IMG/VR virus record: IMGVR_UViG_3300047509_000103
Location: 1 to 64,000 of that record
DNA length: 64,000 nt
Strand: one strand, 5' to 3'
Source: a virus
The translations under genes and the position numbers were made by a program. The first letter of the stretch is position 1. Every line of letters starts with the position of its first letter. The notes under the pieces are model-generated. The model did no database searches and had not been told where the DNA came from. It saw only the letters and a program-made list of their open reading frames with translations. This document shows, piece by piece, positions 1-37,585 of this stretch.

Positions 1-219
1 AGCGCATAGACTGCGGTGGAAATTCTTGAACGCAGCAGTGTCATCCCCGCCAATCGTGCGATTGCGCAATTCAAAGGCATACGATTGCAGCCAGCCAGCG
101 GCATGAATCCTGTCCCTCATCGTGCATTCTTTTGACTCAAGCTGCGTCGCCAGCGCGCCTAATGCGTCGGCACGCTCCGCGTCGGTCTTGAGACCACCAG
201 TCGGTTCTGCGATGGTCAT
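1..219 (-). CDS. Hypothetical phage protein, C-terminus cut by window edge
   Basis: An open frame begins with ATG at 219 and runs off the left edge, giving 73 visible residues (MTIAEPTGGLKTDAERAD at the N-terminus). The start overlaps the stop of the gene at 216-665 as ATGA, the coupling used throughout this leftward operon, which supports both the frame and the start. The visible part is polar and probably helical, with no motif I recognise. Its function is unknown, and the rest of the gene lies outside the window. Confidence 0.6.
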   Translation of the reverse strand, partial: MTIAEPTGGLKTDAERADALGALATQLESKECTMRDRIHAAGWLQSYAFELRNRTIGGDDTAAFKNFHRSLCA

Positions 220-2345: not shown

Positions 2346-3884
2346 TCAACCCCTCTCTGGTGTATTTTGCTGTTGAATTACGGTGCGTTTTCCTGCGTGG
2401 TCAGGCGCCGACACGACGCCTTGTTCTTCCATCGTTTCGACCAGCTGCGCGGCGCGGTTGTAGCCGATCTTGAACACTCGCTGGACGTAGCTGATCGACA
2501 CCGCGCCAGCTTCGCGCACTGTGGCGATCGCCTTGGGCAGCAAATCGTCCGCTTCGCCGCCGCCAAAAGAAGCCAGCACTTCGCCGGTGTTTCCATCCGA
2601 TACGGTGGCGGTGACGCCCTGCTCCTTGCAGAGCCGGTCCATTTTCTTCACGGCCGCATGCACCTTCGGTGACGCCGCCGGTGCGCTCGGCTCGGTCATC
2701 TCGACTAGAGCGGCGAGGATCCACAACGATGTGTAGCCAGCGTTCTTGCCGTGGTTTTCTTTCGCCAGTGCGATCGCCGCCTCGGTGTCAGTCGTGCCGT
2801 CTTTCTTCGCCCGCTTTGTGATCGCCGCTGCACTGCTGGCCATCGTCTCGTCGAACTTGTGCCCGAGGAATTCGCGCGCGGTCTTCCGTGCCTCGTACAT
2901 CTTGGCAGTGATACCGATCACCTTCTCCCACTTGCCAGTCGTCTCCGCATCCCGCATGTGCTTCGGCGCGTCACCGCCATCGAGCGTGAGCTTCGGCGCC
3001 GCGCTGACCCCGAACGTTGATGCCAGCCAGTCCAGCACGCGCCGCAGCTCGAGCGTCATCAGCGCGAACTGCGAGTCGAACAGTTCCGCGGTGCTCTCGG
3101 CATCGCCGAGTTCGTCCTGCACCACATCCAGGAACCGCACCTTGTGCAGGCACAGCGCCTCGTCGAGTACGAACGAAACCCGATCATCGAACACCAGCGC
3201 CAGGCGAAACACCTGCTTGCCCGATTTCAGGTGCTCGCGCACTTCGTCCGATTCCAAGTCCTGATTCGTGCAGCGGACAACGGCGCCGGTTTCGGCTGGA
3301 TCTCGCAGCTCAATCTGATCACCGAGCACCAGATGCTCAGGCAGCTTGCCGTTGATCACCCAGTCGGTCATCAGCGCGCGCGGTGATTCTTCCGGCGAGA
3401 GCGGCACGCAGGGGAACGAGCCGGCCGCTTCGCGGATCGACGAGATGATGTTCTCGGCAACCTTGCGTGTAGCGTGGTCGATCACCAGCCAACCGTCTTT
3501 CGTGAAATAGGCGTTGGTGCGGCGCGTGCGCACGAACGCCTGCGGCAGCAGTGTGGTGAACACTTCGTCTTTGATGCGCTTGCGTTCTTTCGCGCCGACT
3601 CCCACGCCCGTCGCCGCTTCGATCGCGTCGATTTTGTGCGCCAGCACATCGCGCACCACGTCGGCCGGAAGCAACCTTTCCTGCTGCGCCACGGTGATCA
3701 GTTTGAAGTCGCCGACCACGTGCGTGTATGAGTCATCGAACCCATGCACGGGCGGCACGAAGCCGAACGTCGACAGTTCGAGTGGGCCACAGTCGCGCAA
3801 GGCGTGCTTTGGCAACGCATCGCAGAGCGCGCCCAGATCAATCTCTTGGCCGAAGCGGTAGCAAGTTAGGTTGCGGAAGAACAT
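2346..3884 (-). CDS. rdgC-like: RdgC-like recombination-associated protein fused to an FtsK gamma winged helix
   Basis: This 512-residue protein has two parts. Residues 1 to about 300 match RdgC: MFFRNLTCYRF at the start, then FGFVPPV, an LLPQAFVRT block, WLVIDHATRK, a PLSPEESP block and FDSQFALMTLEL. RdgC is a ring-shaped double-stranded DNA-binding protein that restrains RecA. After a charged linker, about residues 449-505 match the FtsK gamma domain (DDLLPKAIATV, SISYVQRVFKIGYNRAAQLV, MEEQGVV). Gamma is the winged helix that reads KOPS in FtsK. No translocase motor is present. Free bacterial RdgC is about 300 residues, so this is a genuine extension. It belongs to the recombination operon with RecT, exonuclease and SSB. 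Confidence 0.85.
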   Translation of the reverse strand: MFFRNLTCYRFGQEIDLGALCDALPKHALRDCGPLELSTFGFVPPVHGFDDSYTHVVGDFKLITVAQQERLLPADVVRDVLAHKIDAIEAATGVGVGAKERKRIKDEVFTTLLPQAFVRTRRTNAYFTKDGWLVIDHATRKVAENIISSIREAAGSFPCVPLSPEESPRALMTDWVINGKLPEHLVLGDQIELRDPAETGAVVRCTNQDLESDEVREHLKSGKQVFRLALVFDDRVSFVLDEALCLHKVRFLDVVQDELGDAESTAELFDSQFALMTLELRRVLDWLASTFGVSAAPKLTLDGGDAPKHMRDAETTGKWEKVIGITAKMYEARKTAREFLGHKFDETMASSAAAITKRAKKDGTTDTEAAIALAKENHGKNAGYTSLWILAALVEMTEPSAPAASPKVHAAVKKMDRLCKEQGVTATVSDGNTGEVLASFGGGEADDLLPKAIATVREAGAVSISYVQRVFKIGYNRAAQLVETMEEQGVVSAPDHAGKRTVIQQQNTPERG

Positions 3885-6767: not shown

Positions 6768-7498
6768 AGCGCCGCCGCAATTTCAATGGCATCAATCGCC
6801 GCGGCAGCGCCGTGCATGACGCAGAGCACCTGCGCTGGCTTCGGGTCACCGGTACGTGCGGCAGCCTCAGCGACCTGGACCTGCCACCACGTCATCACGG
6901 CTTTGATCGGCAGCGCGAGACCGACCTCGACGAATTGGCCAGTCGCCAAACCAATGCCGGTCATCGCTGCATCGGCCGCGATGCACTTGCCCACTGGAAT
7001 CGTGACGGTGTGAGCTTGGACCCACTTGTCGCGCGTGACCTCGAACGCCTGAACGTTCTCAACCGTCGGCGCGGGACACGAATCGCACATCAACATCTTT
7101 GGCTCGCCGGCCAGGGCAACGACTTTCCCGTCCTGCTTGATCTGCTCGAGAACCTTGACCTTTATGTCTGAGCACCCAGAAAGCGGCGCGACCATGGCGA
7201 TGAACATCAGGATCAGCGCCAGCGCGAACCCGGCGCGCGACGGTGCGAGATGGCGCTCAAGCGTTTCGACCCGTGGCGGCAGTGGGATGATCGGCTGACC
7301 GGTGAATTCGGCCGCCACGCGAATGCCGCTGCAGATCGCGCGGTGAGCGGTGTCGCCTTCGCGGATTGCCTTGACGGCATCGTTGCCGCACCGCAAGGCC
7401 TGCTCGTCGTTGCAGCCCATTCGAGTGGCGATGCGCATGACGTGCGCGCGTACCGCGTTCGGACGAAGTGAAACAAAATCTGGTTGTTGCATGGTCAC
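6764..7498 (-). CDS. Membrane-anchored protein with an internal lipobox-like site, 244 aa
   Basis: GTG at 7498 follows a GGAG ribosome site by seven bases. Residues 1-80 are soluble and helical with two Cys (MGCNDEQALRCGNDA). Residues about 90-110 form a hydrophobic segment ending in APLSGCSD, which resembles a lipobox placed internally. The remainder would be periplasmic and ends in an Ala-rich helix. This layout suggests a single-span inner membrane protein. The spanin-like appearance is suggestive only. It heads the run of tiny membrane proteins. Confidence 0.6.
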   Translation of the reverse strand: MTMQQPDFVSLRPNAVRAHVMRIATRMGCNDEQALRCGNDAVKAIREGDTAHRAICSGIRVAAEFTGQPIIPLPPRVETLERHLAPSRAGFALALILMFIAMVAPLSGCSDIKVKVLEQIKQDGKVVALAGEPKMLMCDSCPAPTVENVQAFEVTRDKWVQAHTVTIPVGKCIAADAAMTGIGLATGQFVEVGLALPIKAVMTWWQVQVAEAAARTGDPKPAQVLCVMHGAAAAIDAIEIAAAL

Positions 7499-7570
7499 TT
7501 GCGTTCTCCAATAAGAAGGGTGATTTTTCGTTCATCCAATTGGTGGTCGAAACGGCGTCTACTGCTTAGC

Positions 7571-7719
7571 TCAAAATCCCAAATTGCCGATTACTGACTG
7601 GCGCGCGCGACGGAGCGCACGAGGCGAACCCGCGCGCCGTTGCCGCGGCTGGGGATGCCCACAGTGCCGAGGTCGAAATCGACGACGAAGGCGCAGTCGG
7701 AGTAGGAAGGGTCCGGCGT
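7571..7719 (-). repeat. DGR-type variable repeat VR1
   Basis: This 149-nt segment aligns without gaps to 10788-10936. The first 66 plus-strand positions (the 3' end on the coding strand, including the stop codon and 20 bases beyond) are identical. The remainder differs at 18 sites, all at codon positions 1 or 2 of 12 codons. In 14 of these one copy carries A on the coding strand. This fits adenine-directed mutagenic retrohoming from an AAC/AAT-rich template, with the invariant 3' block acting as initiation of mutagenic homing. No template copy was noticed in the window. Confidence 0.85.
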
Positions 7720-8010
7720 TGACGTCCAGACCCAATCACCATGCGAATTGAAAAGTGGATTGATCGCAGGGTTGAAAAGAGTGTCGTCGGTGATGCCGAA
7801 CAACTCCTTTCGTGTCGGCATCCTCCATTCGTTAGAGCCAGCAAGCGATGCCTCGGCGGCATACTTCACCGCAGCCGCGTGGTTCATTTCCTCAGGCGAC
7901 TCGTCGCGTGCCCACGTCAGATTGGTCAACGGGTCGTGCAAGGCAACGTAGTCCGTTGCATCGGCGGGAAGCTGCTCGTCTGTGCTGCTGATCTTTATCA
8001 AGGTATCCAT
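7591..8010 (-). CDS. DUF1566/Lcl-C-type protein, DGR target 1
   Basis: This 139-residue protein has the core WRMPTRKEL, followed by a WTSTP block and FVVDFDLGTV, and ends in RVRLVRSVARASQ. The pattern is that of the DUF1566 (Lcl C-terminal) C-type-lectin-like fold often diversified by retroelements. The C-terminal 40 residues lie in the variable repeat. Residues that differ from the second copy are clustered in putative ligand-binding positions. There is no signal peptide or tail-attachment domain. It lies between SSB and the membrane protein chain, not in the tail region, so where the displayed binding surface acts is unclear. Confidence 0.8.
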   Translation of the reverse strand: MDTLIKISSTDEQLPADATDYVALHDPLTNLTWARDESPEEMNHAAAVKYAAEASLAGSNEWRMPTRKELFGITDDTLFNPAINPLFNSHGDWVWTSTPDPSYSDCAFVVDFDLGTVGIPSRGNGARVRLVRSVARASQ

Positions 8011-8033
8011 GTGGTCCTCTTTTGGGGTAGTCG

Positions 8034-8498
8034 TCAGAACGGAATTTCGTCGTCGTCGAAACTGTTGGTATCGGACGGCGGCGGTGGAGCGTTTCGGGAG
8101 GATGGAGACGGCTGCGGCCCGCGTGCTGGACCGCGCTCGCGACGTTCACCACTGTCGGGCGTGCTCTTGGTGCCAAGCATTTGCATCACGTCGGCGATAA
8201 CATCCGTCGACCAGCGCTTGATTCCATCTTTCTCGTATTCCTCGGTTCGCAACTTTCCCTCGACATAGACCTGGCCACCTTTTTTCAGGTACTCGCCAGC
8301 GATCTCTGCCAAGCGGCCGAAGAACTTGATCCGATGCCATTCGGTGCGTTCCTGCTGTTCGCCGGTCTGTTTGTCTTTCCACGATTCGGACGTGGCGATG
8401 CGGATCGTCGTGATCGCCGTGCCGCTGGGCGTGTAGCGCGTTTCCGGATCGGCGCCGAGATTGCCCACCAGGATGCATTTATTGATTCCCCTGCTCAT
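8034..8498 (-). CDS. ssb: Single-stranded DNA-binding protein
   Basis: This is a 154-residue SSB. The OB-fold covers residues 1-110 ([20 protein letters not shown], then [30 protein letters not shown] and [11 protein letters not shown]). After a Pro/Arg-rich linker comes the acidic tip DDDEIPF, which recruits partner proteins. It coats single-stranded DNA during replication and RecT-mediated annealing. Its start overlaps the stop of the upstream gene as ATGA, and it lies in the same operon as RecT and the exonuclease. The length is slightly below the usual bacterial 170-180 residues but complete. Confidence 0.95.
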
Positions 8499-9241
8499 GC
8501 GCGTCGCACCGATAGGCCTTTGTCCTCGTACACGCGCACGCCAGGGATTCGCGTGGCACCCTTGAGTGAGCGCACAACGCCACCGATAGCCTGGTTCTCT
8601 TGCAGGTAGCCGAGCAGCGTGTCGTCGCCAGCCTCGGCCGCTTTGCCGGCGGCGATTACCAGCGCCTTGAAGTCGGTCACTTCGTACTTCCAGGTCGAGC
8701 GTGAGCCGATGCCGGCAGCCTTCGGCGCTGCGACCGTCGGCATCGAAACCGGCGCCACTTCGGCGAGCTCGATCGCCTCGCGCGCTGCTTCGACGCCGGC
8801 GACGTCGCCAGACTTCGCCGCCTCGGCTTGCTGCTTTTCGAGCGTTTCACGTGCGGCGCGCGCGATGGCTTCGGCCGCGCGCTTTTCGTCGTCAGCTTTC
8901 TTCTGCTGATCCCGTTGGAAACCGAGCATCGCAGCGCGTAGCGCGTTCTCCGCGTTCGCCATTATCTCATCGGGACCGCGAAACATCTCCATGATGCGCG
9001 ACTTGCTCTCGTCGAGCGGTCGCGTCAGGCTCTTGCGCAATTCCTCCATGTCCTTGCGGCGCGTGGAGATGTTGCGTAGTTCGTCGCCAGCGATGGCATA
9101 CATGTCCTGACTGTCGACGACGATGCTCAGCGCAATCGTGCGCGACTCCGTGGCCATAGCGTTCGCGCGCGCGAGCTCGGGAAGCGACAGCGCGGTTGAG
9201 CCTGGTGCCGGCTCTCCGGCTGGCATAAGTTGTGCGTTCAT
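8495..9241 (-). CDS. Conserved phage recombination-module protein with coiled coil, 248 aa
   Basis: The middle of this protein is a long Ala/Glu/Lys-rich helix (residues about 75-160) that probably forms a coiled coil. The C-terminal domain has [31 protein letters not shown] and the end [13 protein letters not shown] recall this C-terminal pattern from phage proteins encoded next to SSB, RecT and Cas4-like nucleases, usually left as hypothetical. A role with the annealing system is inferred from location only. It is ATGA-coupled on both sides. Confidence 0.75.
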
Positions 9242-9867
9242 TTGTGGTTGGCCTCGAATTGGTGAATGGTCAGCGCGGACAGGAACACGCGCGCGTCGTT
9301 TGGATCCTTGAATGGCACCAGTTGCCAGCGGTCAGGCGTCAGGTGCAGGGCATAGCGATTGATCCGACCGGCGCCAGGCCCGCAGACCGCACTTGCTACC
9401 GCCTCGGGACACGATTCGCGCAGCGCGATTTCGTAGCCCGCCGTTTGTGGCCGTGCGGTACGCGGCACTGCGGCGCAGCGCTTGGTGTCGATGAGCGCCG
9501 CCTCGGCGTTGAGTCGGCCAAAGTTGTCGAGCTTGCCGGCGTAGCCATAGCGTTTCGAGTACACAAGCTGCTCGCAGAGAATCGGCTCGTAGCCAGATGT
9601 CGCGAGGAACTCGCGCCACTGCGCTAGGTACGGTCGCAGCACATCGTCGAGTGCGTCTTCGTCCAGCACATGAGCGGTATCGAGCTCGATCAGCCGGTGC
9701 ACCGCTGTGCCAAGCAGCGCCGCGCGCTCCATTACGTCGCGATCGACACAGGCGTACTCGCGATCTGAAAGCGGCTTGAGCACTTTCGTCACGCTCGGGA
9801 CATCGGTGCCGTCGAGTAGATAGCGGTGGCCATCCTCGATGAATTGGAGTTGCGGCGCCGCGTTCAT
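9238..9867 (-). CDS. PD-(D/E)XK exonuclease (RecB/Cas4-like)
   Basis: This 209-residue nuclease has the RecB-family motifs in order: GTAVHRLIELD (motif with His), GYAGKLDNFGR (Asp of the PD motif), ALIDTKRC (the DxK pair), and QTAGYEIALRE (motif QxxxY). These fit a two-metal 5'-3' double-strand exonuclease. Such an enzyme makes the 3' tails on which the neighbouring RecT protein anneals. It is ATGA-coupled to both recT and the 248-aa gene, which makes an exonuclease-annealase pair very likely. Confidence 0.85.
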   Translation of the reverse strand: MNAAPQLQFIEDGHRYLLDGTDVPSVTKVLKPLSDREYACVDRDVMERAALLGTAVHRLIELDTAHVLDEDALDDVLRPYLAQWREFLATSGYEPILCEQLVYSKRYGYAGKLDNFGRLNAEAALIDTKRCAAVPRTARPQTAGYEIALRESCPEAVASAVCGPGAGRINRYALHLTPDRWQLVPFKDPNDARVFLSALTIHQFEANHK

Positions 9868-10769
9868 GCCGCGTTTGCCTTGTTGTTAGCCATCTCGCGC
9901 AGTTCGGCCAGCACCGCATTGAGATTGCTCAAGTCGATGCGGTGGTACTTCGCGATAAGCGCCTTCTCGTCGAGCCCGACGCTCTGCGCGCGCGCCTTGA
10001 GGATCGCCGCCTGAGAATCGCTCAGGTTGTGCAGACCTTCGGGCAACGTCTTGACATCGACCGCCGGCTTGTCCGCTTCCGGCTTTGCCTTCGCTTTCGG
10101 GTCGCTGAACGTCGCATCTTCGGCGGGCGCCGCGGTCGGTGTTGCTGCCGGCGTCGGTGTCGCAGCAGCTTTCGCCGTCGGCATCTGCACGACTGTTGCT
10201 GTGGCTGTTGCCGGCTCGTCGTCGAACTCGTCTGGCGTGTAGATGCCGAGCAGAGCTTCTGGAGCGTAACGGCGCGCCCATTGGCGCGTGCCGCGGTAGA
10301 CAAGCATGTCCTCGGGAATCTTGTCCCAGGCGTTGTCGACGCGGTTACCTGCCTTGTCCTTCCCGTATGTACGCCACTCTTTGACGGCGCCGGTAACCGT
10401 CTGCGGCTCGCCGTTGCCGCCCCGCGGTACACCAGTGACCTTGATCGAGGCGCCGGCCCCGCTACCAGTGATCTCGTAGTGCAAGCGCCCGTCGATCGCG
10501 CCCATGCTGTAGAGCACTGCGGCGACGAGCTTGCCTTCGTAGCAAAGGCGCTTGTGCACCACGCTCGTGCACTGCGCGACGCTGAGCGCATCCATACCCC
10601 AACGCTGCGCCTGCATCACCACGAGCAGGCAATCGCCTGGCTTGTTTTGCAGGTGCTCCGGTATCAAGCTCGATTTCGCCAGCGTCTCGGCCAGCTGCAC
10701 CGCTTCGGGCACAGAGCGCGGCACGAGTGCCTGCATCGACGTCGTTTGTTGCGTAGCTAGTTCACCCAT
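9864..10769 (-). CDS. recT-like: RecT-family single-strand annealing protein
   Basis: Residues 1-200 match RecT: PRSVPEAVQLAETLAKSSLI, the GMDALSVAQC block, LCYEGKLVAAVL, KEWRTYGKDK and the strongly conserved ARRYAPEALLGIYTPDEFD. Then comes a low-complexity Ala/Thr/Pro linker (about 195-230) and a C-terminal helical tail of about 60 residues (SDSQAAILKARAQSVGLDEK). The tail may contact partner proteins. The protein would pair complementary strands made by the adjacent exonuclease. It begins 19 bases downstream of the second variable repeat, with its ATG at 10769 behind a GGGAGA site. Confidence 0.9.
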   Translation of the reverse strand: MGELATQQTTSMQALVPRSVPEAVQLAETLAKSSLIPEHLQNKPGDCLLVVMQAQRWGMDALSVAQCTSVVHKRLCYEGKLVAAVLYSMGAIDGRLHYEITGSGAGASIKVTGVPRGGNGEPQTVTGAVKEWRTYGKDKAGNRVDNAWDKIPEDMLVYRGTRQWARRYAPEALLGIYTPDEFDDEPATATATVVQMPTAKAAATPTPAATPTAAPAEDATFSDPKAKAKPEADKPAVDVKTLPEGLHNLSDSQAAILKARAQSVGLDEKALIAKYHRIDLSNLNAVLAELREMANNKANAA

Positions 10770-10787
10770 CTCGTTCTCCCGTTGAAT

Positions 10788-10936
10788 TCAAAATCCCAAA
10801 TTGCCGATTACTGACTGGCGCGCGCGACGGAGCGCACGAGGCGAACCCGCGCGTTGGCGTTGCGGCCGTGGATGTACACAGTGCCGTAGTCGAAATTGAC
10901 GATGAAGGCGCAGTAGGAGACGGAAGGGACCGGCGT
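10788..10936 (-). repeat. DGR-type variable repeat VR2
   Basis: This is the partner of 7571-7719, displaced by exactly 3217 bases with no gap. The identity ends at the TCA shared by both copies on the low-coordinate side. On the other side it ends after the codons for Thr-Pro, beyond which wobble-position differences begin. This marks the edge of the exchanged segment. Confidence 0.85.
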
Positions 10937-11233
10937 GGATGTCCAGTAGTACGAAGGCTTGAAGTTCAACTCTGGATCCGCTGCTGGGTTGTAGCGAGTG
11001 CGGTCAACCACGGAGTTGTTCATCTCGTCGACAGTGGCGAAACGCCAGTCGTCGTGACCGAACAGGCGACACGCGTCGCGAATCTTTTCCGCTTCGGCAT
11101 ACGACACGCTTTTGTCTATCGCGTCGTTCGCGGCCCACATCAAACCGTTCTTGGTGTCGAGGAAAGCGGCCAACACGGGCGGCACTGGTGGCGCCATCTC
11201 GCGGCCATCACTTCCGATCTTCGTCATGTTCAT
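10808..11233 (-). CDS. DUF1566/Lcl-C-type protein, DGR target 2
   Basis: This 141-residue protein has the same fold cues as target 1: GLMWA, DDWRFATVDEM, YYWTSTPVPS, FIVNFDYGTV and the identical ending RVRLVRSVARASQ. Outside the C-terminal repeat the two proteins are clearly diverged. This argues for two long-standing targets, not a recent duplication, with the shared end maintained by template copying. AAGGGA precedes the ATG at 11233. In this copy several variable codons are AAC, TAC or CAC, closer to an Asn-rich template. It is the last gene before recT in the leftward operon. Confidence 0.8.
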   Translation of the reverse strand: MNMTKIGSDGREMAPPVPPVLAAFLDTKNGLMWAANDAIDKSVSYAEAEKIRDACRLFGHDDWRFATVDEMNNSVVDRTRYNPAADPELNFKPSYYWTSTPVPSVSYCAFIVNFDYGTVYIHGRNANARVRLVRSVARASQ

Positions 11234-13045: not shown

Positions 13046-13153
13046 CTAGTCAACGCAGGGTGATCCGGCTCTGGCCAACACTGTCGCCAATCTCAAGCCG
13101 TGCGATGCAGCTATGTTTTGATGTTCCACTACGGGGATGGAGGTAGCCTTCAT
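13046..13153 (-). CDS. Possible 35-aa frame after the repressor
   Basis: A short frame starts at ATG 13153 in an ATGA overlap with the repressor stop and ends at TAG 13046. Another frame through the same bases (stop near 13050) stays open back to 13268 and has more G/C at third positions. The coding status of this 115-base space is therefore unclear. Confidence 0.25.
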   Translation of the reverse strand: MKATSIPVVEHQNIAASHGLRLATVLARAGSPCVD

Positions 13154-17908: not shown

Positions 17909-18291
17909 CTGCGCAGGCCGAGATGGCACTACGTCGCATAGTGCAGGAGCTGCCGCGATTCTCGTATCGCTTCGGCGACGAGGTGGAGCTGCACCAAGGC
18001 ATCGCGAAGGTGCTCACCGACGCGGGCATCGCCTTCGAGCGGGAGGTGGTCGCATCGAAGCAGGACCGTTTCGATTTCCTTTGCACCGGTGGCGTGGTGA
18101 TCGAGGCGAAGGTGCACGGTGCATTGATGCCAGCGATCGATCAATGCTCGCGCTATGCCGCGTTGCCAGACGTGCATTCGGTGGTCTTGGCGACGACGCG
18201 ATTCTGGGCCGGCATGCGACCGCTGAAAGCTGACGCGCAGCTCAACGGCAAACCGATCCTGGTGGTGAAGCTGAAGGGGATGTCGTTTTGA
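17905..18291 (+). CDS. PD-(D/E)XK-type nuclease partnered with SNF2 helicase
   Basis: This 128-residue protein has FEREVVASKQDRFDFLC followed by GGVVIEAKVHGAL and QCSRYAALPDVHSVVL. The spaced Glu...Asp...Glu-x-Lys pattern is that of the PD-(D/E)XK fold, in the compact form seen in phage and defence nucleases. It overlaps the SNF2 helicase start as ATGA, so the two are translated together and may form one nuclease-helicase machine. Confidence 0.7.
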   Translation: MTAQAEMALRRIVQELPRFSYRFGDEVELHQGIAKVLTDAGIAFEREVVASKQDRFDFLCTGGVVIEAKVHGALMPAIDQCSRYAALPDVHSVVLATTRFWAGMRPLKADAQLNGKPILVVKLKGMSF

Positions 18292-20033
18292 TCACCTACG
18301 GCGAAGTAAAACTCGGCAGTGGCGACTGGTGGATCAAGTGCGAGCCGTTCGTCAGCGCGCGGCTCAAGCGTGTGTTCCCGCGCGCGCCGCAAGCTGCGGC
18401 TGAGTGGCTGCGCATATCGGCATCGGCCGAGAACACGCGCGAGCTGCGCTGGTTCCTGCAGCGCTACCCGATGGCGGTGGACAACAAAAAAGAGCTGAAT
18501 CGCCGCGCGAACGAACACGTTGACAACGAGACGCGGCTTGCAGACCTGATGGCTGGTCACATTGCGCCGCCATCGATCGAACTGGCCGAGCCGCCGCGCG
18601 AGTACCAGACCTTTGCTGCGCAGATGCTCGACGTGCGCAAGGGCTATTTGCTAGCCGACGATCTCGGCCTGGGCAAAACGGTGTCAGCAATCTGCGGATT
18701 GGTGCACACGAATGGCCTGCCAGCCTTGGTGGTCTGCCCGGCGCACCTGCCGCGGCAGTGGCAGAAGATGATCAATCGATTCGCGCCAGCGCTGCGCACG
18801 CACATCCTAAAGAAAGGGCAGGTGTACGACTTGGCGCCGCGCAAACGTGTGCGCCAGGCGGATCTGCTGCCGAATTCTATTCCCGACGTGATAATCACCA
18901 GCTACCACAAGCTGCGCGGCTGGGCTGAAACGCTGGCCGGCCTGATAAAATTCGTGGTGTTCGACGAGTGCCAGGCGTTGCGCAGCCCCGGCACAGGCAT
19001 ATACCGCGCTGCAGATCTTGTTTCGGCTCGCGCCACCTGGCGTATGGGCTTGAGCGCGACGCCGATCTACAACTACGGTCACGAATTCCACCATGTGATC
19101 GACGTGCTCAATCCGGGTGGTCTGGGGCAGTACGACGAATTCATCCGCGAGTGGTGCTCGCCGCTGCCGAACGGCAAAGCGCGGATCAACGACACGAAGC
19201 AATTCGGCGCGTACATGCGCCGCGAAGGACTGATGTTGCGGCGCACGCGCGAAGAGGTGAAGCGCGAGTTGCCTGAGCTGACGAAGGTGATTCACGACAT
19301 CGACGCCGATGAAGCGGCGCTCGACGACATGAAGGGCAACGCTGTTGCACTGGCGAGGATCGTGCTCGGCCAAGCAGAGCGCTACCGCGGCGAGCGGATG
19401 CAAGCCGCAGGCGAATTCGATGCAATGATGCGCCAGGCCACCGGCATCGCAAAAGCGCCTTACGTAATCCAGTTCGTGGATATGCTGCTCGACAGTGGCG
19501 AGCCGATCGTGCTCTACGGCTGGCACCGCGCGGTGTATGCAATGTGGTGCGAAGCGCTCGCCAAGCACAACCCGGTGATGTACTCCGGGTCCGAGTCACC
19601 CACGCAGAAAGACGCCGCGATCGAGGCATTCGTAGCGGGTCGCACAAAGCTGCTGATCATGTCGCTACGCAGCGGCGCCGGCGTCGACGGGCTGCAGGGC
19701 ACAGCCAACACCGTCGTCTTCGGCGAACTGGATTGGAGCCCGGGGGTACACGAACAATGCGTCGGCCGAGTGCATCGCGACGGCCAGGATTCCGCGTGCA
19801 CTGCTTACTTTCTTGTTGCCCAAGCTGGCTCTGACCCTGTCATCGCCGAGGTGCTCGGCGTCAAGCGCGAACAGATCGAAGGTGTGCGCAACCCAGACGG
19901 CGCGATGGTCGAGCGCATCGAGACTGGAGAAAACAACATCCGCCGCCTTGCGCGCGAATTCCTGCAGCGCCGCGGGCACGCGCAGCCAGAAGAAACATCG
20001 GTCACTCCAATCAGCGAACTGGTGATGGCATGA
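18288..20033 (+). CDS. SNF2-family helicase/ATPase
   Basis: This 581-residue superfamily 2 enzyme has a Q-like motif PREYQTFAAQML, Walker A DDLGLGKTVSA (about residue 124), motif Ia PALVVCPAHLPRQW and Walker B VFDECQALR (about 225). Motif III is LSATPIYN, motif V is LLIMSLRSGAGVDGLQ, and motif VI is EQCVGRVHRDGQ (about 490). The length and motifs fit SNF2 translocases of phages. It probably tracks along double-stranded DNA during replication or recombination, with the nuclease at 17905 as partner. The N-terminal 100 residues are specific to this group. Confidence 0.9.
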   Translation: MITYGEVKLGSGDWWIKCEPFVSARLKRVFPRAPQAAAEWLRISASAENTRELRWFLQRYPMAVDNKKELNRRANEHVDNETRLADLMAGHIAPPSIELAEPPREYQTFAAQMLDVRKGYLLADDLGLGKTVSAICGLVHTNGLPALVVCPAHLPRQWQKMINRFAPALRTHILKKGQVYDLAPRKRVRQADLLPNSIPDVIITSYHKLRGWAETLAGLIKFVVFDECQALRSPGTGIYRAADLVSARATWRMGLSATPIYNYGHEFHHVIDVLNPGGLGQYDEFIREWCSPLPNGKARINDTKQFGAYMRREGLMLRRTREEVKRELPELTKVIHDIDADEAALDDMKGNAVALARIVLGQAERYRGERMQAAGEFDAMMRQATGIAKAPYVIQFVDMLLDSGEPIVLYGWHRAVYAMWCEALAKHNPVMYSGSESPTQKDAAIEAFVAGRTKLLIMSLRSGAGVDGLQGTANTVVFGELDWSPGVHEQCVGRVHRDGQDSACTAYFLVAQAGSDPVIAEVLGVKREQIEGVRNPDGAMVERIETGENNIRRLAREFLQRRGHAQPEETSVTPISELVMA

Positions 20034-27603: not shown

Positions 27604-27665
27604 CCACCCAACCAGCGATGACAGGCGAGGAAGTGCTGGATGCGATGCTACTCGCTCTTGCTTGA
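27600..27665 (+). pseudogene. 21-codon fragment duplicating the start of the 27865 gene
   Basis: This frame encodes MTTQPAMTGEEVLDAMLLAL and stops. Its first 15 codons repeat the start of the gene at 27865, with one extra Thr codon. A 33-base identity links 27606-27638 and 27868-27900. It looks like the left half of a duplication left when the gene at 27677 was inserted or when homologous ends recombined. It may still be translated through the ATGA overlap. Confidence 0.55.
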
Positions 27666-27676
27666 GAGGGACTGTG

Positions 27677-27868
27677 ATGGCCAATAAGAAGGTGAATATT
27701 CCAGAAGGTTGGGCTTTGGTGCCAGTCAATCCCACCAATAAGCAGTTTATGGCTGCCGAGAAAACAGGGTTTCATTCTTACACCGGAACGTTCTGCCTTG
27801 ATCCTTTCGCGGTTTACGAAGCGATGATTAAGGCAGCGCCGAAGTACAAACAAGCGAGGCAGCCATGA
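27677..27868 (+). CDS. Small phage protein with VPxxPT...AMIxAAP motif, 63 aa
   Basis: This 63-residue protein contains GWALVPVNPTNKQFMAAEKT and YEAMIKAAPKYK. This motif is widespread in phage accessory proteins, including the C-terminus of the mosaic protein at 31372 (VLVPREPTQAMREAA ... AMIAAAPPP). It acts as an interchangeable module of unknown function. It lies between the two copies of a duplicated gene start. Confidence 0.65.
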   Translation: MANKKVNIPEGWALVPVNPTNKQFMAAEKTGFHSYTGTFCLDPFAVYEAMIKAAPKYKQARQP

Positions 27869-28257
27869 CCCAACCAGCGATGACAGGCGAGGAAGTGCTG
27901 CGCGAATTGGATGATGTTGTGGGAGTGCCTGTGCCGGTCGGCCCTTACGGCAAGAAATTACATCGCATCCGCACCGCCGTCGCCTCCCTGCTGGCCGAAC
28001 GGGATGGGTTAAAGGTGGAGAATGAGCGTATCGCTAGATTTGCCGAAATAGGATCGCTTGATAGCTGGATACGGCTTTCTGATGACGACAAACGCAAGTG
28101 GTTCGTGATGTTCACTGATCGTGAAGCTGAGTACCGAGAAATTATCAGAGACTTGTGCGAACTGAGACAAGAGGGCTGGAACATCTGCACAAAGCCTGTT
28201 TGGCAGGAACGGGTACAGAAAGCGTGGGCACGCGCGTTCGGGTTGTTCGAGCCGTGA
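27865..28257 (+). CDS. Accessory hypothetical protein, 130 aa
   Basis: This 130-residue helical protein begins MTQPAMTGEEVLRELDD and has a coiled-coil middle (AVASLLAERDGLKVENERIA). The end is Trp-rich. The first 15 codons are duplicated at 27600. Function unknown; many phage accessory genes share the ASLLAERD-type helix. Confidence 0.6.
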   Translation: MTQPAMTGEEVLRELDDVVGVPVPVGPYGKKLHRIRTAVASLLAERDGLKVENERIARFAEIGSLDSWIRLSDDDKRKWFVMFTDREAEYREIIRDLCELRQEGWNICTKPVWQERVQKAWARAFGLFEP

Positions 28258-29934: not shown

Positions 29935-30254
29935 ACACATCAGCGGTCAAAACGGATAGGGCGAGCGTGGAGGCGATGGTGCAGTGGCTACGTGATTTCG
30001 GCTATCTTGATCATGGACGACTGCTAGAGGCCCTGCTCGCCGAGCGTGAGAAGGCGGACACGCAGTACGCGCTATTGCTGGCCGCGAGTAAACAGGGCGA
30101 GAAGGCGCACGAAATTCGCGCCAAGATTATTCACGAACTGGAAACCAAGCTCGCCGCCGCCGAAGCCGAGCGTGAGGCGCTGCGCAAGGGCGAGTACATT
30201 TGCAAAGAATGCGGGTTGCGCAAAAACGCACAGAGTGAGCCGGCGACGTTCTGA
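29931..30254 (+). CDS. Coiled-coil protein with C-terminal Cys pair, 107 aa
   Basis: This 107-residue protein is mostly a charged helix (LEALLAEREKADTQYALLL, LETKLAAAEAEREALRKG) ending in YICKECGLRKN. It precedes and overlaps the TnpB-like gene as TGATG. No family is named. Confidence 0.6.
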   Translation: MNTSAVKTDRASVEAMVQWLRDFGYLDHGRLLEALLAEREKADTQYALLLAASKQGEKAHEIRAKIIHELETKLAAAEAEREALRKGEYICKECGLRKNAQSEPATF

Positions 30255-31375
30255 TGAAAGCCCTGCGCCTCAAAGTTCACCCCGAATCGTGGCCTTGGCT
30301 AGATCAGGCAGCGCGAGAGGTCAATTTTGCTTGGAACTTCTCGAACGAAACTCGCCACAAAGCCGCGCACCCGTTCTTCGGTAAGCCACGCTACCTGTCT
30401 GGATGGGACCTGGACAAGCTGGCCACCGGAGCTGGCGAAGTCCTGAAACGGATCGGCACGGATACCATCTGCCGCGTCAATAGCGAGCTTGTAACCAAGT
30501 GCAAGGCAGTCCGGCGTTCAAGGCTGCGTTGGCGTGTCAGTGCTGGTCCGCGTCGTTCGCTTGGTTGGGTGCCGTTCAAGTCGGCCAACCTCCGCCGACA
30601 TGGCAACGCAATCCGATTCCGTGGCAAGACATTCCGCGTATTCAATGCCGGATTGCTCACTGGCGCGAAGCTGCGACAAGGGTCGTTTTCGCAGAATGCG
30701 CTTGGTGAATGGTTCATCAACATAGCGGTTGAAACCGCCTCTACGGACGTACCGGCAGAGCACGCCGTCGTCGGCATTGACCTTGGCCTCAAAAGCGCTG
30801 CAACAACGTCAGACGGCGACGTGCTTGAAGCCAGTCAGTTCTACCGCGGCATCGAGCCACGCATTGCCCAGGCGCAGCGTCGCGGCCACAAGCGGCAGGC
30901 TAAGCGGCTGCACCTGAAAGCTAAGAACCGGCGCGCTGACGCCCTGCATAAGTTCAGCACAAAGATCGTTGCGCAGTATCAGAACATCCGCATCGGCGAC
31001 GTGAGCAGTTCCAAGCTGGCGAAGACCAAGATGGCAAAGTCCGTCTTGGACGCTGGCTGGTACATGCTCAAAACGCAGCTTCAGTACAAGGGCCAGCAGG
31101 CCGGTCGCAGCGTTGAAGTGGTCGATGAGGCATACACAACACGCGCATGCAGCAACTGCGGAGCCTTAACCGGCCCAGCAGGTTTGGACATGCTCGCTGT
31201 AAGGTCGTGGCGCTGCTCGGATTGTGGAACCGAGCACGAGCGGGACGTTAACGCCGCTCGCAATATCGCCATGACCCCGCCGAGATGCCGGCGGCCATCT
31301 GCGGGAACGAGAGCCAGAACTGGCGTCACGAGGATCGAATCGCAGGCGGTTGAGCATCATCGGAGAATTTTATGA
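30254..31375 (+). CDS. tnpB-like: TnpB/IS605 OrfB-like protein (phage-encoded)
   Basis: This 373-residue protein has the TnpB layout: a basic N-terminal domain with the phage-type block RRSLGWVPFKSANLRR, RuvC I GIDLGLKSAATTSDG (about 174), a basic bridge-helix-like stretch, and a zinc ribbon (CSNCGALTGP ... CSDCG). RuvC III is ERDVNAARNIA (about 328). The usual RuvC II sequence I-x-x-E-D-L reads IRIGDVSSSKL (about 244-254), so the expected Glu is Gly. No IS ends or TnpA are seen, and the gene is tightly embedded between phage genes. It may be a domesticated RNA-guided protein, perhaps with altered cleavage. Confidence 0.85.
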   Translation: MKALRLKVHPESWPWLDQAAREVNFAWNFSNETRHKAAHPFFGKPRYLSGWDLDKLATGAGEVLKRIGTDTICRVNSELVTKCKAVRRSRLRWRVSAGPRRSLGWVPFKSANLRRHGNAIRFRGKTFRVFNAGLLTGAKLRQGSFSQNALGEWFINIAVETASTDVPAEHAVVGIDLGLKSAATTSDGDVLEASQFYRGIEPRIAQAQRRGHKRQAKRLHLKAKNRRADALHKFSTKIVAQYQNIRIGDVSSSKLAKTKMAKSVLDAGWYMLKTQLQYKGQQAGRSVEVVDEAYTTRACSNCGALTGPAGLDMLAVRSWRCSDCGTEHERDVNAARNIAMTPPRCRRPSAGTRARTGVTRIESQAVEHHRRIL

Positions 31376-35941: not shown

Positions 35942-36325
35942 ATGAAAGTCCAGTGCAACACTCGTTGCCAGCGCGTCATCGCGTACCTGCTGATCAAGCT
36001 GAACCAGCCCACGACATGGGCAGGGTTCGCGACCGCTGCAACCGCGTTTGGGATCAACTTCTCGCCCGAGAAGTGGCAGGTCATATCGACCACTGGCATG
36101 TCCGTCGTGTCCTTCTGCCTGTTCCTGGCGAGCGAAGGGCGAAACAAGCCGGACAACCCCAATCTGAGCACTGTGCTGAGGGGCGAAATGCCGCCGCCCA
36201 AGGCTGCCATCGTGCCGCCCAGCACCGATGGGATGGCAACGCTGACCCAAGCCCAGGTGAAAAGCGAGGTTGTGGATCCGGCCGGCGAAGTGCACGCGCA
36301 ACCTACGGACAAGCCAAATGGCTGA
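35942..36325 (+). CDS. Holin-like membrane protein, 127 aa
   Basis: Two hydrophobic segments (TWAGFATAATAFGINF and ISTTGMSVVSFCLFLAS) are followed by a long polar tail of about 55 residues. This is the layout of phage class II holins. No family signature is certain. It lies 0.8 kb past the lysozyme among small late genes. Confidence 0.55.
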   Translation: MKVQCNTRCQRVIAYLLIKLNQPTTWAGFATAATAFGINFSPEKWQVISTTGMSVVSFCLFLASEGRNKPDNPNLSTVLRGEMPPPKAAIVPPSTDGMATLTQAQVKSEVVDPAGEVHAQPTDKPNG

Positions 36326-36752: not shown

Positions 36753-37585
36753 CCACAGCGGCAGAGTACGCATGCCTTGCCGGTTACGCGGAAGCGATGA
36801 ATGCGGCAGGCTTGTTGGCGCCACCGATCGACACGCGCGCGAACGATTGGCAAATCGTCGGCTATATCACCGCCCAGAACGCGCTGTTCAACCTGCAGCG
36901 CGTTGGCGTCGGCCAGCGCGTGTTCTTCGGTTTCCACGCGTTCAGAATGTCCGATCCAAGAGAGCACGTCGTCGTCATACGCGGCACCGAGAGCGCGATC
37001 GAATGGATAGAGGACGCCGACGCGATACTGGCGCCGGGACCGCCCATCGGGTTAGTGCATCGTGGTTTCTGGAGCATCTACCAGAGCGCGCGATACTTCT
37101 CGCACGGCGCGCTTGGTGATGGCTTGCTCGCCGCGCAGGGCATCACCGCAGCAATGCCGATCGGCGCATCGGTGACATTCATCGGTCACAGCCTAGGCGG
37201 ACCAATAGCTACATACATGGTACATGACACCGCGCGTATTCCATTCGCCCCGCGGCAGCGTGAATTCTCTCTCGGTGCTGTGCTGTTCGCGAGCCCGCGC
37301 CCAGGCGACCGTGCCTACGTCGAGAACTTCGACGAGGTGGTCGGCAAGCTGAACTATTCATGTTACGCATACGAACGCGACCGCGTTCCGCACTTGCCGG
37401 TCTGGATTCCGACGCTGCCGTTCAAGTCACTGCTTGGCACGACATGGATCAAGCCATCGCAGTCGCAGGCAATCATCAGCGATACGCCTGGGTGCTGCCA
37501 TGCAGCCACGTCTTACGCACGAATGCTTGATTATGCTAGTGCCGACGGCACAAATAGCTGTGTATTGGGACCGAGACCCAGCTGA
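36749..37585 (+). CDS. Class 3 lipase (alpha/beta hydrolase)
   Basis: This 278-residue protein has the lipase nucleophile elbow GHSLGGPIATY (about residues 145-155) preceded by VVVIRGTESAIEW, and a following ASPRPGDRAYVENF block with the catalytic Asp. A His (DRVPHLP) completes the set. There is no signal peptide. Phage-borne lipases may act on host or other membranes at lysis, or be carried as an accessory gene. The gene sits between the helical protein and an HNH nuclease. Confidence 0.85.
   Translation: MTTAAEYACLAGYAEAMNAAGLLAPPIDTRANDWQIVGYITAQNALFNLQRVGVGQRVFFGFHAFRMSDPREHVVVIRGTESAIEWIEDADAILAPGPPIGLVHRGFWSIYQSARYFSHGALGDGLLAAQGITAAMPIGASVTFIGHSLGGPIATYMVHDTARIPFAPRQREFSLGAVLFASPRPGDRAYVENFDEVVGKLNYSCYAYERDRVPHLPVWIPTLPFKSLLGTTWIKPSQSQAIISDTPGCCHAATSYARMLDYASADGTNSCVLGPRPS

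Follow-up and report, generated by a model that had tools for sequence, protein, structure and literature searches.

Results

Two Lcl_C genes with the footprint of a diversity-generating retroelement

The DNA considered here is the first 64,000 nucleotides (the window) of the linear 80,857-bp virus record IMGVR_UViG_3300047509_000103, in which two genes on the minus strand end in nearly the same sequence, with differences of the kind left by a diversity-generating retroelement (DGR); the remaining 16,857 bases of the record (L001) were analysed as well. Target gene 1 (7591-8010, 139 aa) and target gene 2 (10808-11233, 141 aa, directly upstream of recT) both match Pfam Lcl_C, formerly DUF1566 (PF07603, E 8.1e-22 and 2.6e-20 respectively), and are paralogues with 43% identity overall. 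Their variable repeats (VRs), with a shared 3' tail, extend over 7571-7719 (VR1) and 10788-10936 (VR2) on the same strand. The original prediction had described these segments as a gap-free 149-nt match with an A-directed pattern of differences, and realignment and recounting bore this out: the 149 nt align without gaps, the 18 differences fall in 12 of 43 codons (stop counted), all of them are in codon positions 1 and 2 (0/18 third-position), and at 14 of the 18 one copy has A. The lowest 66 nt (7571-7636 in VR1, 10788-10853 in VR2, both minus strand) are identical, as had been claimed, and span the stop codon and 20 nt past the stop; the block in VR1 contains a 17-nt tail, GCCRGTCAGTAATYGGC.

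By chance, the codon-position bias would be expected with a probability of (2/3)^18 = 7e-4, and at least 14 of 18 differences involving A with a binomial probability of 1.5e-4, given the base composition. All 12 variable codons end in C or T, compared with 22 of 31 invariant codons (p = 0.036), and the other 131 sites show 0 differences. The A-directed changes lie in a VR at the C-terminal end of each target, and the pattern is a genuine DGR footprint. Just after the VR, a subset of phage DGRs carries a hairpin or cruciform. At the tails of VR1 and VR2, where the conserved 17-nt tail lies, potential hairpins folded less stably than shuffled sequences (z +1.7 and +2.0). The structure predicted for target 1 has the C-type-lectin fold of a DGR target protein (pLDDT 87.8, pTM 0.82); its nearest neighbour is the C-terminal domain of Legionella Lcl (8q4e; Z 13.3, root-mean-square deviation 2.2, 111 residues aligned), and it also resembles the Treponema variable protein TvpA (2y3c, Z 9.1). 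The target of the DGR of Bordetella phage BPP-1 is a C-type-lectin tail protein.

Complete DGRs and their templates in relatives

In viral contigs, a profile built from both targets detected 10 loci. RVT_1, a match for reverse transcriptase (RT), is present in five of these 10 records, and a scan for A-biased repeats found template and variable repeats in loci of exactly those five. The 17-nt tail alone gave 68 matches in 59 stretches of the viral contigs, and 63 of the 68 end an Lcl_C frame. Fifty-one of these 59 tail loci, representing 50 records, were surveyed for RVT_1 and Lcl_C; the loci omitted were L060, L082, L094, L106 and L110, in which the tail does not end an Lcl_C frame, and three in records already included. 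A Pfam Lcl_C match was present in all 50 records (above the cut-off in 49) and an RVT_1 match was absent from 12, three of which (G029, G044 and G055) have the target so near the edge of the record, at most a few hundred bases away, that they are probably truncated. A slightly longer form of the tail gave 33 matches in 28 stretches of genome contigs, where 14 matches in 9 stretches were Lcl_C and the other 19 were chance or unrelated. The titles of the Lcl_C contigs name Stenotrophomonas, Dyella, Pseudoxanthomonas, Rudaea and Lysobacteraceae, all of which we take to be Lysobacterales.

In the relatives the cassette runs Lcl_C, often a second Lcl_C, avd, template repeat and RT. A profile match to Avd, an accessory protein of most DGRs, lies beside the RT, directly upstream of it, in 41 of 43 RT loci (not deduplicated), and the two loci that lack it (L171 and L172) match the RT profile weakly too. 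Avd was identified by phrog_3206 and also by NF033474 and PF22296, the latter two scoring below their curated cut-offs. LPIGNLSSQ, the motif of DGR-type RTs, or a close form of it is present in all 40 RTs of the RT profile, which required G[LI]P[IL]G and Y.DDF, so that the first half of the motif was selected rather than discovered. The counts given here rest on Pfam, a clean Lcl_C profile and this motif-filtered RT profile. In four records (L005, L007, L010 and L012; RT loci L014, L016, L017 and L018) the RT reading frame includes the template repeat, in frame, close to its start, and low-scoring Lcl_C matches within long RT frames point to the same layout in others.

Twenty-eight distinct templates (17 distinct peptides) were compared with a 19-codon core of the VR in an NNG-anchored register. 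All nine variable codons of the core coincide with template codons that have A in positions 1-2 (in at least 89% of templates each), and seven of the 10 invariant codons coincide with template codons without A (Fisher p 0.0024, a value that is not blind, as the test was run after a stop-codon register had been tried). The stop-codon register gave p 0.62 and was dropped because the tails differ in length. The core leaves out three of the 12 variable codons; the comparison extended to one of these, position -10, where A is present in only 21% of templates. The prediction that the template codons would be mostly AAC or AAT is borne out by these 28 templates, and their agreement with the A-type pattern upholds the two-target DGR footprint originally proposed.

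Two duplicated genes could also have diverged under selection without any DGR, and the targets are indeed paralogues. This explanation is hardly credible in view of the absence of third-position differences, the A bias, the agreement with real templates and a VR tail held in common with complete DGRs.

The DGR core is missing from the record

The original prediction had noticed no RT and no third copy of the repeat in the window. The same proved true of the rest of the 80,857-bp record, in which a template repeat, a DGR-type RT and Avd were looked for and none was found; the junction between the record's ends (80857 to 1) is unsampled, and these negatives do not extend across it. A search of the whole record with RVT_1 gave 0 matches, and a profile of 40 DGR RTs from the relatives gave none at E<=5. 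No additional sequence in the record matched VR1 or VR2, even with template A allowed to differ, and the invariant 31-mer is present in exactly two copies. The best match in the record to a profile of the relatives' Avds reached only E 0.87, and Pfam bAvd (PF22296) found nothing in it (G000), in a search that likewise failed to pick up the truncated avd pieces described below for G037 and G067. As the RT, the template and Avd were all tested and not found, the VR1/VR2 pair is not classed as a functional DGR.

Searches outside the record were also largely negative. A host-borne template was looked for by comparing VR2 with 398 genomes spread evenly over the order of Dyella halodurans, which gave one weak match, in Dyella lutea (72%). 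Exact scans of the viral contigs with a predicted template fragment and the invariant block gave 0 matches, a single-protein scan with target 1 gave none, and tblastn of a phage collection with target 2 gave none, as did the same search with a relative's target. Megablast of window positions 20000-44900 also found no match.

An RT-like frame beside target 1

The sequence common to VR1 and VR2 stops at 7571, directly downstream of target 1, and so the RT-like sequence described here begins where the VR-tail sequence ends. A profile of the C-terminal ends of the 40 relatives' RTs (87 positions) was run against the 2050 six-frame segments of the record, and its best match was an open frame on the minus strand at 7498-7590 (10.0 bits, E 0.092), a score reached by 0 of 20000 shuffled peptides and 0 of 12154 of the record's own windows. 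Within this frame, 7510-7569 is probably the C-terminal stub of a DGR RT: 10 of its 20 residues are identical to the RT end of Dyella lutea, with a score of 58 that was reached by none of 1500 shuffles and none of 1500 own windows. The frame is trusted mainly because it is located where the relatives' cassettes place the RT.

These results suggest, with a probability that we put at roughly 75%, that the two Lcl_C genes are former or non-autonomous DGR targets with a deletion scar at the ancestral cassette site. An ancestral cassette of avd, template repeat and RT would have been located directly downstream of target 1, and a deletion would have brought the last ~20-25 codons of the RT next to the end of the conserved 3' tail of VR1 (about 7570), taking out Avd, the template and the RT core. 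The targets, small proteins with a predicted C-type-lectin fold, would have remained intact around ssb, the exonuclease gene and recT, fixed in the variants of the last round of rewriting unless changed again by some other element whose template fits. The A-type pattern, its agreement with real templates, the lack of RT, template and Avd in the record and a short RT-like frame at the expected place are observations; that this frame is a deletion scar, that the loss was recent and what the proteins bind are inferences. The original prediction had left two fates for the system, decay or service by a distant or host-borne RT; decay is now favoured, given the probable RT stub after target 1, which that prediction had not noticed, and clearer stubs in three RT-less relatives, and continued service by an RT elsewhere is the less likely alternative.

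Several points weigh against the loss by deletion. Ranked by its mean score over all RT ends, 7510-7569 is less exceptional, with a value attained by three of 1500 shuffles and four of 1500 own windows. The match of the RT-like frame is short (10 bits; E 0.092 over the 2050 segments of the record) and emerged when other profiles had already been run, and no piece of avd or of the template repeat is left at the site. The record is linear with an unsampled junction, where a cassette could sit, and the 0 differences outside the 18 sites fit a recent loss and also ongoing rewriting in trans.

The cassette might thus lie intact across the junction, in a record that may be incomplete, and in two relatives (L005 and L006) the cassette does adjoin a homologue of the window gene at 2346-3884, near the window's left end. 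We consider this very unlikely. In L006 the cassette lies between homologues of 2346-3884 and 1278-1736, genes that are only about 600 bp apart in the window. Moreover, relatives have Avd directly upstream of the RT and the target near it (in G013 the Lcl_C match ends at 36272 and the RT match begins at 37110), whereas both targets of the window have kilobases of RT-free flank, and the putative stub at 7510-7569 already marks a cassette site. By eye, a 17-mer at window positions 44-60 recurs, inverted, as the final 17 bases of L001 at the record's other end; this may be a genuine feature of the ends or have arisen in assembly.

Neighbouring genes and RT-less relatives

Between the targets, on the minus strand, lie a single-strand binding protein gene (ssb; 8034-8498, Pfam SSB E 1.8e-35), a conserved gene without a Pfam match (8495-9241), an exonuclease gene (9238-9867, phrog_298 E 1.9e-26) and a gene for a RecT-type annealing protein (9864-10769, Pfam RecT E 5.8e-12). 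With the SSB, exonuclease and RecT genes between target 1 and target 2, the targets lie among recombination genes and not tail genes, which hints at an early role in binding something inside the cell. A review also imagines variable cytosolic VR proteins that bind viral proteins (PMC10053308).

Elsewhere in the window, 27606-27638 and 27868-27900 form a perfect 33-nt direct repeat with starts 262 bases apart, and 30254-31375 (plus strand) encodes a transposase-family protein in a phage genome (phrog_506, E 6e-62). The gene at 18288-20033 was considered as a terminase and rejected, as Pfam identifies an SNF2-type helicase.

One relative without an RT is G037 (30,979 bp), which carries an integrase gene, Lcl_C, a homologue of the gene at 8495-9241 (58% and 45% identity, in two pieces), an exonuclease gene (58% identity), RecT, a second Lcl_C and a homologue of the window gene at 13150. 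This is the order of the window's record once its two ends are joined; no counterpart of the ssb between the window's targets was found in G037. In G037 the same Lcl_C is followed directly by the beginning of avd (E 5e-28), an HNH endonuclease gene and a C-terminal stub of the RT (E 6e-8), in that order. Stenotrophomonas sp. 278 is arranged in the same way, with an avd that is truncated (E 1e-46), followed by an HNH gene and an RT stub (E 2e-11). RVT_1 gave no match in its 4.7-Mb draft genome, where the only candidate for a third VR-like copy was a 26-bp match at E 0.03. The HNH genes of the two are 64-66% identical. In two phages, then, the position of the template and RT core, with the start of avd on one side and the RT C-terminal stub on the other, is occupied by an HNH gene of the same family, at L185:6126-7154 (minus strand) in G037 and at about 30010-31012 of G067:C199 (L188:12410-13412). 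Another relative, L009, retains a piece of avd together with an RT stub (E 8e-5), and no HNH match was found in it. Since the breakpoints differ among the RT-less relatives the losses may be independent, and together the remnants point to a Lysobacterales phage DGR family in which loss of the core recurs. The draft genome of Dyella halodurans (L145) has a single Lcl_C VR, with no RVT_1 match and no second VR copy.

Drift within the VRs was also compared. G037 shows no change that is not of the A type, and Stenotrophomonas sp. 278 shows one third-position and one other non-A change; three of the four third-position differences in its VR pair are at codons 38-41, probably outside the VR. The driftless pair of the window fits either a recent loss or rewriting that continued in trans, and because G037 is driftless too, without an RT, missing drift does not separate the two; the case for a deletion does not depend on it.

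Possible rewriting in trans by another prophage

A further explanation is that the targets are non-autonomous, their own RT having been lost or never present, and that the RT and template of another prophage in the same cell rewrite the VRs in trans. This is not mutually exclusive with a deletion scar, and the driftless VR pair would agree with it. One case came from a metagenome-assembled genome, G064 (Lysobacteraceae UBA6001), which has both a target-only prophage and a cassette: a VR on contig C1 differs from a template on contig C104 by 17 mismatches, all at template A, with 0 others in 105 nt; the same VR is present in the RT-less record G050. On C104 a serine recombinase lies beside the cassette (Pfam), and by eye nuo genes extend to 15.4 kb with phage genes beyond. 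Within single phages, too, the template fits targets that are 4-6 kb away: six loci gave 91 mismatches, 84 of them at template A. Against this, the C104 template is identical in two other phages, so that its fit is not specific to the genome, and G064, as an assembly from a metagenome, possibly mixes strains. The C1/C104 fit is therefore compatible with service in trans and no proof of it, and such service within this family of Lysobacterales phage DGRs seems plausible from the sequences compared. For the window itself rewriting in trans is unlikely: none of the templates compared fits its VRs, the best of them leaving 30 non-A mismatches in 120 nt, the order-wide search had produced its single 72% match to VR2, and the RT stub would imply that a cassette was once in place at target 1.

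Templates are shared in this family: an identical 105-nt template core occurs in three phages of different sources (L180, L084 and L104), as if templates were conserved or exchanged between phages.

Discussion

The two Lcl_C genes are probably what remains of a system of known type, targets derived from a DGR and accompanied by a deletion scar. A broader idea, which we regard as speculative and on the unlikely side, is that phages carrying only targets represent a regular, non-autonomous state of the Lysobacterales DGR family, in which the RT core would be shed by deletion or HNH replacement, the lectin-fold targets would be kept among recombination genes, and other prophages in the same cell would rewrite them via a template shared across phages. 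Such remnants show routes by which a DGR may die (internal deletion and HNH replacement) and leave its targets behind, and with them diversification in trans between prophages can be put to a direct test. A search of the open-licence literature by titles and abstract openings found nothing describing target-only phages or replacement of a DGR core by an HNH gene.

A very large DGR survey anchors on the RT, requiring an imperfect repeat within 20 kb of the RT gene (PMC8144416), and genomes with targets only would escape detection by RT-first surveys of this kind; the 17-nt VR tail finds targets without using the RT. DUF1566 was the commonest annotated domain of DGR targets in human microbiomes, with 47 proteins (PMC4159848), which were identified via complete DGRs, unlike the window's pair. 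A 2012 survey reported that distant targets still have A exchanges without other mutations (PMC3521204).

The nearest parallel to targets without an RT is in Nanoarchaeota, where, as in the window, VRs show A-directed differences in the absence of an RT gene; the authors interpreted them as fossils or as remotely diversified (PMC4372165). Those are archaeal orphan target genes, however, and the available part of that paper mentions neither an RT stub nor replacement by an endonuclease. The DGR of Bordetella phage BPP-1 resembles the present case in its C-terminal VR and in a required element just downstream, but that element is a hairpin with an 8-bp stem (PMC3240598), and no such fold was found at the window's VR tails. 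From the same bacterial group as here, PMC10743442 cites a Stenotrophomonas sp. DGR described as having many targets, up to eight of them.

The closest systems are the complete Lcl_C-target DGRs of Lysobacterales phages found in this work (for example L058 and L151 in Stenotrophomonas rhizophila, whose prophage has a cassette and a distal target, and L152 in Dyella lutea). They have avd, a template repeat and an RT, none of which the window's record has, and they share with it the target family, the VR tail and the variable codons. It is Dyella lutea that provided both the best match to the RT C-terminus among the RTs compared (L176) and the only DNA match in the order-wide search.

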